Part shown: in pieces, positions 5,513-8,342 of the stretch
Position numbering within the stretch: the first letter of the stretch is position 1
Layout: the number at the start of each line of letters is the position of its first letter
Source: Aquipuribacter nitratireducens
GTDB taxonomy: Bacteria; Actinomycetota; Actinomycetes; Actinomycetales; JBBAYJ01
NCBI RefSeq assembly: GCF_037860835.1
Contig: NZ_JBBEOG010000002.1
Span: 310,001 to 374,000 of the forward strand
Reading direction: 5' to 3'
Length of the DNA stretch: 64,000 nucleotides
Position numbers and translations under genes: made by a program
Notes under the pieces: model-generated
Seen by the model: the letters and a program-made list of their open reading frames with translations, nothing else
What the model was told of the DNA's origin: nothing
Databases searched by the model: none

Positions 5513-5665
5513 TCAGATGGCCGACATCGTCGCGAGCCCCTCGGCCAGGAGGGCGAAGAAGCCCCCGATGAGCAGCAGGCCGAGCCCGAGCCCGACAGGG
5601 GACGCCCAGCCGTGCCACCGCTGCTGCAGCACCTGGGACTCGGCGGTACGGTCGTTCTCGCTCAT
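5513..5665 (-). CDS. 50-residue predicted membrane peptide
   Basis: A short hydrophilic N-terminus (SENDRTAESQ) is followed by one long hydrophobic segment from about residue 21 to 48, long enough for one or two membrane passes. The ATG at 5665 has a GAGGAC Shine-Dalgarno sequence; an upstream in-frame ATG at 5725 would overlap the tetR stop and is rejected. I recognise no family. The gene has a near-consensus promoter whose -10 is buried in a perfect 17-bp palindrome identical in core to the two operators in front of tetR, so it is very probably repressed by that TetR protein. It may be a drug- or membrane-stress-responsive peptide; this is inference only. Confidence 0.7.
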   Translation of the reverse strand: MSENDRTAESQVLQQRWHGWASPVGLGLGLLLIGGFFALLAEGLATMSAI

Positions 5666-5689: not shown

Positions 5690-5706
5690 TTCGTACAAAG
5701 TACGAA
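5690..5706. promoter_or_regulatory. TetR operator O1
   Basis: Perfect 17-bp palindrome TTCGTACAAAGTACGAA, covering the -10 of the 50-residue membrane-peptide gene. Its 15-bp core recurs at 6482-6496 and, with one base changed, at 6447-6461. Confidence 0.85.
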
Positions 5707-5725
5707 CGGGTGGCGCACCCGTCAA
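5697..5725 (-). promoter_or_regulatory. Promoter of the 50-residue peptide gene
   Basis: On the minus strand: TTGACG (5725-5720), 17-nt spacer, TACTTT (5702-5697). The -35 overlaps the tetR stop codon and the -10 sits inside operator O1. Confidence 0.8.
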
Positions 5726-6417
5726 GCGGCCGGACCGTCGAGGTCCGCCTCCTGCTCCGCGAGCGCGGTGAGCCCGTCGAGCAGCAGGTCCATGCCGACC
5801 TCGAAGGAGGCCCCGAACCCGTACCCGGGCTGCAGGACGTGGTCGCGCGTGAGCTCGTGGAGCGACGGGTACCGCCCGGCGTCCATGCCCGCGAGGATCT
5901 GCTCGGCGACGTCGGCGATGTCGGCGCTGCCGTGGGCGGGCAGCGTCGCCTCCTGCAGGGCGAAGCCGTAGACGTAGCTGTCGAGGACGGCGTAGGCGTG
6001 GGCGGTGAGGCGCAGCGAGAGCCCACCGCCGCGCAGGCAGGCGAGCACGGCCTCGTGGTGGTCGAGCGTCGCCTCACCCGGGTTCACCCGCGACTCCAGC
6101 AGCGGCACGGCCCAGGGGTGCCGCGCGAGCACCTCGCGGGCCGAGTGGCACCGCACGCGCAGGGCGGCCTGCCACGGCAGGTCGGTGGGCGGGTGGGTGA
6201 TCTCGGCGAAGACCTGGTCGACGAGGCCGTCGAGGATCGCGTCCTTGCCGGCGACGTAGTGGTAGATCGACATGGGCTTGGTCGACAGCTCCGTGGCCAG
6301 GGCCCGGATCGTCAGCCCGTCGACGCCGTCCCGGTCGGCGAGCGCGACCGCCGCCTCGAGGACCCGTGACCGGCTGAGCCCGGTCCGCCCGCGCCGCACC
6401 TCGTCCGTGCCTGCCAC
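5722..6417 (-). CDS. TetR/AcrR-family repressor
   Basis: A 231-residue DNA-binding repressor. The N-terminal helix-turn-helix spans about residues 20-65, with the recognition region STKPMSIYHYVAGKDAI. The C-terminal ligand-binding region resembles the TetR_C_1 type (HPWAVPLLESR near residue 105). The GTG at 6417 has a GGAGGAG Shine-Dalgarno sequence 5 nt upstream; an open frame to 6477 upstream lacks one and would run through the operators. It is divergent from an MDR oxidoreductase and controls three promoters through three palindromes (5690-5706, 6447-6461, 6482-6496), its own included. The inducer is unknown. Confidence 0.9.
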   Translation of the reverse strand: MAGTDEVRRGRTGLSRSRVLEAAVALADRDGVDGLTIRALATELSTKPMSIYHYVAGKDAILDGLVDQVFAEITHPPTDLPWQAALRVRCHSAREVLARHPWAVPLLESRVNPGEATLDHHEAVLACLRGGGLSLRLTAHAYAVLDSYVYGFALQEATLPAHGSADIADVAEQILAGMDAGRYPSLHELTRDHVLQPGYGFGASFEVGMDLLLDGLTALAEQEADLDGPAA

Positions 6418-6439
6418 GTGTGCTCCTCCCGTCGTGCCG

Positions 6440-6468
6440 TTGACTCTCGTACATAGTACGACTAACGT
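6440..6468 (+). promoter_or_regulatory. Promoter of the MDR oxidoreductase operon
   Basis: TTGACT (6440-6445), 17-nt spacer, TAACGT (6463-6468). Operator O2 fills the spacer almost exactly and O3 lies just downstream of the predicted start point near 6475. Confidence 0.75.
6447..6461. promoter_or_regulatory. TetR operator O2
   Basis: TCGTACATAGTACGA, 15 bp, two 6-bp arms around ATA. It covers the -10 of tetR (minus-strand TACTAT, 6458-6453) and the spacer of the divergent promoter. Confidence 0.85.
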
Positions 6469-6481
6469 TCCCGACATTCAG
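6453..6481 (-). promoter_or_regulatory. Promoter of tetR
   Basis: Minus strand CTGAAT (6481-6476), 17-nt spacer, TACTAT (6458-6453). The -10 is inside operator O2, so tetR is predicted to be autorepressed. Confidence 0.6.
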
Positions 6482-6496
6482 TCGTACAAAGTACGA
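6482..6496. promoter_or_regulatory. TetR operator O3
   Basis: TCGTACAAAGTACGA, identical to the core of O1. Its centre is 35 bp from the centre of O2. It lies downstream of the predicted oxidoreductase start point and beside the tetR -35. Confidence 0.85.
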
Positions 6497-6519: not shown

Positions 6520-7566
6520 ATGACGACGCAGCAGTCCCAGCGGCCGACGAGGGCGCCGCGCACGACGGCGGTGCCCACCCGCATGCGTGCCGCCGTGCGG
6601 GAGCGGTACGGCCCGCCCGCCACGATCACCTCCCAGGCCCGCCCTGTGCCGTCGCCGGGAGCCGGGCAGGTGCTCGTCGAGGTCCACGCGGCCGGCGTCG
6701 ACCGGGGCGTCTGGCACCTCGCGACCGGCCTGCCGTACGTCATGCGGCTCGGCACGGGCCTGCGGCGCCCGCGCCAGGCGGTGCTCGGCCTCGACGTCGC
6801 CGGGGTCGTCGTCGGCGTCGGTGAGGGCGTCACCCGGCTGGCGGTGGGGGACCGCGTCTTCGGGATCGGGACGGGGACGTGGGCGGAGTACGCCCTCGCC
6901 CGCGAGGACAAGCTGAGCCTCGTCCCCGACGGCGTGGACCTCGTCGACGCGGCCGCGGTGCCCGTGTCCGGGGCGACCGCGCTCCAGGCGGTCCACGACG
7001 TCGCCCGCGTGCAGCCGGGGCAGCGGGTGCTGGTTCTCGGCGCCTCCGGCGGTGTCGGGAGCTACCTCGTGCAGGTCGCGCGAGCCGCGGGCGCCCACGT
7101 GACCGGCGTCGCGAGCGCGAGCAAGCTCGACCTGGTCCGTGACCTCGGCGCGGAGGAGGCGCTCGACCACCGCCGGCACGACCCGCTCGACGGGAGCCGA
7201 TGCTTCGACGTCGTCCTCGACGTCGGCGGAAGGCGGCCGCTGCGGCACCTGCGCCGCGCACTCACGCCCGACGGGACCCTCGTGATCGTCGGCGGGGAGG
7301 GCGGTGACCGCGTCCTCGGTGGGACGGATCGTCAGCTGCGTGCCCTGGTCCTGTCCCTCCTGGTGAAGCAGCGGCTCACCACGTTCGTCGCCGGGGAAGG
7401 ACGCGCGAGCACCGACCGGCTCGCGGTCATGCTCCGCGACGGCACGGTGCGACCTGCAGTCGGGAGTCGGTACCCGCTGGAGCGGGCCGCCGACGCCCTC
7501 ACCGACCTCGTCGAGGGCCGGATCCGGGGCAAGGCCGTCGTCGTCGTGCGGGGGGAGGAGCGGTGA
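6520..7566 (+). CDS. MDR-family NAD(P)-dependent oxidoreductase
   Basis: A 348-residue medium-chain dehydrogenase/reductase. The GroES-like catalytic domain comes first, with GLDVAGVVVGVGEGV at about residue 88. The Rossmann domain carries LGASGGVGSYLVQVARAAGA near 175. The structural and catalytic zinc-binding cysteines of classical alcohol dehydrogenases are absent, so it is closer to zinc-free quinone/enone reductases. The ATG at 6520 has a GAGGAG Shine-Dalgarno sequence. It overlaps the DUF4386 gene by 4 nt and is divergent from tetR, a trio repeatedly seen in actinobacteria. Predicted to be derepressed when TetR binds its ligand; the substrate is unknown. Confidence 0.85.
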   Translation: MTTQQSQRPTRAPRTTAVPTRMRAAVRERYGPPATITSQARPVPSPGAGQVLVEVHAAGVDRGVWHLATGLPYVMRLGTGLRRPRQAVLGLDVAGVVVGVGEGVTRLAVGDRVFGIGTGTWAEYALAREDKLSLVPDGVDLVDAAAVPVSGATALQAVHDVARVQPGQRVLVLGASGGVGSYLVQVARAAGAHVTGVASASKLDLVRDLGAEEALDHRRHDPLDGSRCFDVVLDVGGRRPLRHLRRALTPDGTLVIVGGEGGDRVLGGTDRQLRALVLSLLVKQRLTTFVAGEGRASTDRLAVMLRDGTVRPAVGSRYPLERAADALTDLVEGRIRGKAVVVVRGEER

Positions 7567-8342
7567 GCGCCCTCCGGCAGGCGACCGCCCCGACGGCCCA
7601 CGCCGCGGGCGAGCTCCGCGACGTCGGCCTCGTCACCTCTCCCCGCGCCGCCGCGCTGTGGGCCGGTGGCAGCTACGCGGCGTTGTTCCTCCTCGCGATC
7701 TTCGCGAACTTCGCCGTCGTCGAGCGGCTCGTCGACCCGGCGGACCCCGGCGCGACGCTCACGGCCCTCGCGGGGGAGGCGTCGCTCGTCCGGGCCGCCG
7801 TCCTCGCCTTCGGCGTCGTGTTCGTCCTCGACGTCGTCATCGCGTGGGCGCTGTTCGTCGTCCTGCGGCCCGCCGGCCGGGACCGGGCGCTGCTGGCGGC
7901 GTGGTCGCGCCTCACGTACACCGCGTTCCTCGGCGTCGCCCTCGTCCCGCTGCTGCTCGCTCTCCAGCTGTCGACCGAGGACGCGTACGCCGACCTCGAT
8001 CCCGCCACGCGGGAGGCGGCGGTCGGTCTCGCCGTGGACTCCTTCGACCTCCTGTGGCTGACCGGGCTCGCCGTCTTCGGGTTGCACCTCGTCGTGGTCG
8101 GGGCCCTCGTCGTGCGCTCGCGCACCGCGCCCCGGCTGCTCGGCGGGCTGCTCGTCGTCGCGGGCGTCGCGTACGTGCTCGACACCGCCGCGCACGTCGT
8201 GCTCAGCGACTACGAGCGCTGGGCCGGCCTGCTGCTCCTCGTCGTCGCGGTGCCCTCCGTCGTCGGTGAGCTGTGGCTCACGCTCTGGCTGCTGGTGCGG
8301 GCGGGCCGAGACCGCGGGTCCTCAACGGGTGCCCGGCCCTGA
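7563..8342 (+). CDS. DUF4386 family membrane protein
   Basis: A 259-residue integral membrane protein with about six hydrophobic helices separated by short loops, matching the DUF4386 family by layout (helix, extracytoplasmic loop with LVDPADPG, further helices). Function is unknown in the family. The GTG start overlaps the stop of the upstream oxidoreductase (GTGA), so the two are translationally coupled and share the TetR-controlled promoter. The last 44 codons overlap a convergent minus-strand gene. Confidence 0.75.
   Translation: MSALRQATAPTAHAAGELRDVGLVTSPRAAALWAGGSYAALFLLAIFANFAVVERLVDPADPGATLTALAGEASLVRAAVLAFGVVFVLDVVIAWALFVVLRPAGRDRALLAAWSRLTYTAFLGVALVPLLLALQLSTEDAYADLDPATREAAVGLAVDSFDLLWLTGLAVFGLHLVVVGALVVRSRTAPRLLGGLLVVAGVAYVLDTAAHVVLSDYERWAGLLLLVVAVPSVVGELWLTLWLLVRAGRDRGSSTGARP

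Follow-up and report, generated by a model that had tools for sequence, protein, structure and literature searches.

A putative TetR regulon joining a small membrane protein to an MDR/DUF4386 operon in Aquipuribacter nitratireducens, with an apparent change of regulator in Demequina

In a 64,000-nucleotide stretch of the Aquipuribacter nitratireducens genome (referred to here as the window), a tetR gene is divergent from genes for an MDR enzyme and a DUF4386 membrane protein, and a palindrome located between these genes recurs behind tetR, in front of a short open reading frame (ORF) for a small membrane protein (the peptide). This locus raises the question of whether a single repressor controls the enzyme/membrane-protein pair in front of it as well as the peptide gene behind it. 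Based on the sequence comparisons described below, shared TetR control of its own gene, the MDR-DUF4386 operon and the peptide gene is considered probable (approximately 85%). The kind of system is ordinary, while the peptide family and the exchange of its regulator are absent from the libraries and literature searched. Annotation readily overlooks small membrane proteins, and here it is the operator that reveals one outside the searched family libraries.

Operators and genes of the window locus

The features of the locus are listed in Table 1. The earlier note had reported three palindromes with the same core, and these were confirmed as exact copies of TCGTAC-N3-GTACGA that are unique to this locus: the 3.83-Mb genome contains three exact copies, all inside 806 bp, and no further copy was found in it with one mismatch tolerated. 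Under a second-order Markov model, 0.63 copies are expected by chance genome-wide and 0.00013 per 806 bp. The promoter readings in the same note also withstood inspection of the sequence, with O1 covering the -10 of the peptide promoter, O2 located at the tetR -10 and within the spacer of the divergent MDR promoter, and O3 just beyond, immediately downstream of TAACGT. The -35 of the peptide promoter overlaps the tetR stop codon. The tetR start is most likely GTG 6417, replacing the mechanically assigned ATG 6477, which is located between O2 and O3.

Table 1. Coordinates of the operators, promoters and genes of the window locus
Feature	Position	Strand	Description	Basis
O1 operator	5691-5705; as 17-bp palindrome TTCGTACAAAGTACGAA, 5690-5706		Over peptide-promoter -10	Exact match
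O2 operator	6447-6461		Fills -35/-10 spacer of MDR promoter, upstream of tetR	Exact match
O3 operator	6482-6496		Second of tandem pair, 35 bp after O2	Exact match
Peptide promoter	5697-5725	minus	TTGACG-N17-TACTTT; TTGACG 5725-5720, TACTTT 5702-5697 inside O1	Inferred from consensus
MDR promoter	6440-6468	plus	TTGACT-N17-TAACGT; TTGACT 6440-6445, TAACGT 6463-6468	Inferred from consensus
Peptide gene	5513-5665	minus	Single-pass membrane peptide, 50 aa (MSENDRTAESQVLQQRWHGWASPVGLGLGLLLIGGFFALLAEGLATMSAI)	ORF read directly; Demequina-only HMM
tetR	5722-6417	minus	Repressor gene; GTG start probable	PF00440 and PF02909 above cut-offs
MDR gene	6520-7566	plus	Zinc-binding dehydrogenase / quinone-oxidoreductase-like	PF08240, PF00107, PF13602
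DUF4386 gene	7563-8342	plus	Membrane protein; overlaps MDR stop	PF14329, E 4e-48

The window TetR was assigned to the TetR_C_1 subgroup by its domain matches (PF00440, 29.8 bits against a cut-off of 24; PF02909, 77.7 bits against a cut-off of 21) and is 51-59% identical to its orthologues in the aligned set. Among solved structures, ActR and SimR are some of the nearest to it in sequence. As in TetR/TetA, ActR and SimR, the window TetR is predicted to be autoregulated, and its palindromic operators form a tandem in the gap of a divergent gene arrangement; unlike in those systems, its predicted targets are an MDR enzyme, a DUF4386 protein and, at a third operator, a small membrane protein. The MDR resembles PIG3-type quinone oxidoreductases in that it matches TIGR02824 (E 7e-48) and has quinone oxidoreductases as its closest solved relatives, but its 163 bits fall below the cut-off of 296.8, so that it is related to the PIG3-type NAD(P)H quinone oxidoreductases without being assigned to them. 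No mention of DUF4386 was found in the literature searched, and the literature search returned no relevant paper on this operator together with TetR.

A total of 80 loci were collected from actinobacterial genomes by TetR profile. The conserved operator (at least one match, TAC...GTA core) adjoins tetR at 78 of these, normally in the tetR-MDR gap and in most cases as a tandem pair. Tandem operators at the related loci are mostly spaced 22-24 or 33-36 bp apart, with the O2/O3 pair of the window at 35 bp. The consensus over 166 sites is TCGTACTWAGTACGA; since these sites were chosen for their TAC...GTA core, the informative positions are the others alone. Single copies of the exact operator with other central triplets, encountered in certain genomes of the order, G048 and G376 for example, were set aside; the G048 stretch is without a TetR/MDR homologue. 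At one locus (L239 5131-5501, genome G302), the MDR match was obtained in several pieces, as if interrupted or frameshifted, with tetR and DUF4386 still present.

The peptide family and its TetR-type operator in Demequina

The first relative of the window peptide was a weak match (E 0.03, single-sequence search) in Demequina genome G029, about 115 bp beyond an operator. This genome carries the tetR-MDR-DUF4386 trio and, 4.4 kb off and beside leuA, two operators that precede the gene for a membrane peptide of 54 aa. Profile searches identified the family in 18 of 44 Demequina genomes, with E below 1e-15. In 14 of the 18, operators are located immediately upstream of the peptide gene, either on the leuA side (eight genomes) or between MDR and tetR (six genomes), with one or two operators 34-71 bp ahead of the start codon. 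The leuA-side peptides are 3-5 kb from the trio, yet carry the operator. In the other six, MDR and its operators point one way and a second operator pair, the peptide gene and tetR the other. In several TetR-type peptide genes the first operator directly follows TTGAC, a layout matching that of O2 in the MDR promoter. While the window has a single O1 at the peptide gene, a tandem pair is the arrangement for nearly all Demequina peptides. The peptide was looked for at other tetR-MDR-DUF4386 loci, and its conservation behind the same operator in these 14 genomes supports the proposal that one repressor serves both the peptide gene and the enzyme/membrane-protein pair.

Within Demequina, the peptide was found in 16 of 28 genomes with a TetR orthologue, the remaining 12 having the orthologue but no peptide, and in two of 16 genomes without one (Fisher p 0.005, relatedness ignored). 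LeuA is encoded close by at the loci of all 17 genomes on the LeuA tree. In genome G253 (L084 8932-10301), a second MDR (45%) and DUF4386 (31%) pair directly follows the peptide gene in convergent orientation, with no operator detected.

Members of the family are 43-60 aa long, with one hydrophobic segment and a WxxP...(S)G pattern, and the window peptide conforms to this definition, its hydrophobic segment covering residues 23-41 by hydropathy. A palindromic operator at the peptide's own promoter is present in the window (O1) and for 14 TetR-type and four YtrA-type (see below) Demequina copies. With a membership profile built from 17 Demequina sequences, from which the window ORF was left out, this ORF was the top match in the window (E 6e-6; next match, 1.6). 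None of 2000 block-preserving shuffles of the window peptide scored as well (best 11.3 bits versus 24.8 bits). Identity between the window and Demequina peptides is just 24-40%, and mostly within the hydrophobic segment.

Ka/Ks values of 0.04-0.15 were obtained in two closely related groups of Demequina peptides (38-39 codons), and on these codon comparisons the close Demequina homologues show purifying selection. Higher values, up to 0.89 (38-39 codons), were obtained for some leuA-side and YtrA-group pairs, so that relaxed or diversifying change may have occurred in the YtrA-type copies and some leuA-side pairs.

According to the earlier note the peptide appeared to be undescribed, which agrees with the library searches: no Pfam or PHROGs model matches the family, and no credible NCBIfam model was found. 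The NCBIfam matches to TrbI (best E 0.0013) and NapC (E 0.045; 13.6 bits versus a cut-off of 349) were attributed to the hydrophobic segment and rejected, as were weak peptide matches inside long ORFs of other genomes. Scanning viral_contigs for WHGWxSPVG gave three loci, all put down to chance, two of them because their frames are stop-interrupted or very short and the third more tentatively. The plasmid collections searched returned nothing.

A YtrA-like operator at the peptide gene and the possible role of the peptide

In four Demequina genomes (G292, G404, G401 and G406), the peptide gene is located beside leuA without a TCGTAC site, and the palindrome GTTAGTTACTNNACCAACTAAC stands in its place (L096, L232, L233 and L235). 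No TetR orthologue was found in G292 and G404, while G401 and G406 have one. A search for GTTAGTTACTNNACCAACTAAC in seven Demequina genomes located a second place in six of these (a single match or two that overlap), immediately ahead of a short GntR gene; genes for an ABC ATPase and, if the contig extends far enough, a permease come next. In G406, GTTAGTTACTNNACCAACTAAC was found at the peptide site alone, and the regulator gene was not located. The GntR regulator (118 aa; PF00392, 29.1 bits against a cut-off of 27) is encoded by the first gene of the ABC-transporter operon, and its length, with a short C-terminal domain of ~50 aa, and operon position fit the YtrA subfamily. At the TetR orthologues of G401 (L234 3045-3093) and G406 (L236 3242-3290), sites of the form GCGTACTAAGTACGC were observed, with the peptide there outside the TetR regulon.

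As judged from the YtrA-type operator in these four genomes, control of the peptide by TetR is not obligatory. When the YtrA label is placed on the LeuA tree, at least two changes are needed, with G406 sister to the TetR-type genome G116; the promoter may have changed repeatedly, or the peptide region may instead have been transferred horizontally. The peptide appears to swap regulators, yet stays beside leuA. YtrA of Bacillus subtilis responds to cell-wall antibiotics, and YtrASa is a YtrA-subfamily GntR repressor of membrane proteins with a two-target regulon (PMC6746942). Similarly to the YtrASa regulon, that of the short GntR regulator in the four Demequina genomes seems to include the peptide gene as an unlinked second target; unlike in YtrA-subfamily GntR systems, the window and 14 Demequina genomes place the peptide family under TetR. 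The YtrA-like operator at the peptide gene in four genomes points to membrane or envelope stress.

In the proposed regulon, TetR bound to O1, O2 and O3 would block RNA polymerase at three promoters, namely its own, that of the divergent MDR-DUF4386 operon (tandem O2/O3) and that of the peptide gene (O1). An inducer, probably hydrophobic or electrophilic and reduced by the MDR, would free TetR and lift all three blocks, whereupon the MDR, the DUF4386 protein and the peptide would appear together. The nature of the MDR suggests that a quinone-like or enone compound is reduced. The peptide can tentatively be regarded as an accessory component in responding to compounds that are membrane-active or membrane-borne; that it acts in the membrane during membrane or cell-wall stress is a guess, suggested by the YtrA connection.

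A more specific and rather doubtful reading is that the peptide is a free-standing membrane-stress effector, passed between TetR and YtrA/GntR at least twice in one genus, with a regulated promoter always kept. If true, the peptide would represent a class of small actinobacterial proteins that is new, inducible and either membrane-protecting or membrane-sensing. Irrespective of this reading, the two forms of control provide a natural test of its role, since a condition under which the TetR and YtrA regulons are both induced should be the one in which the peptide is needed. Alternatively, and no less doubtful, the peptide may be a partner of DUF4386 or the MDR, such as a membrane anchor or regulatory subunit, and not an independent effector. 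Larger membrane proteins are often modulated by small ones, and the common operator and the location inside the cluster in six genomes are in line with such a partnership; the peptide-bearing genomes G292 and G404, in which no TetR orthologue was found, the four peptide operators that match an ABC-transporter operon instead and the absence of the peptide from most trios argue against it.

It is improbable that the peptide is tightly repressed on account of being self-limiting or membrane-toxic: this would suit a short hydrophobic protein that is apparently repressed by two unrelated regulators, but sharing control with an enzyme operon is what one would more typically see in a stress response, and no antitoxin was noticed in an unsystematic look. 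Least probable is that O1, which is single and ~750 bp away from O2/O3, merely strengthens tetR/MDR repression by looping, with the downstream ORF (short and, in its window form, lacking close relatives) spurious or incidental, given that the Demequina homologues are under purifying selection and keep the operator even 3-5 kb from the trio, and that the window ORF tops a profile that excludes it.

Distribution of the peptide outside Demequina

The peptide does not generally accompany tetR-MDR loci: among the 80 examined, a stretch of 10 kb around ~61 non-Demequina loci, some of them truncated by contig ends, yielded no detected copy, and these loci include the one with the closest TetR (L104; 75% identical). 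Neither operator nor peptide was found in two other searched species of the window's genus. Refined-profile searches, performed on samples of the respective groups, identified the peptide among 396 genomes of the order in Demequina and the window genome, besides one weak match inside an ORF, and gave one further candidate, G690, among 394 genomes of the class.

The G690 candidate (L263; L273 449-685) is a 55-aa ORF, RWHGWGSPVGLG, which is 48% identical to the window peptide, shares its RWHGWxSPVGLG stretch and may be a distant relative. Upstream of it lies an unrelated perfect 16-bp palindrome, CGACTCCTAGGAGTCG, with a divergent PAS-like ORF alongside. Elsewhere in the phylum, a short ORF of genome G876 (L280), MEAILGWGSPIGISILIVSIGLSIFLASRIGK, weakly resembles the peptide.
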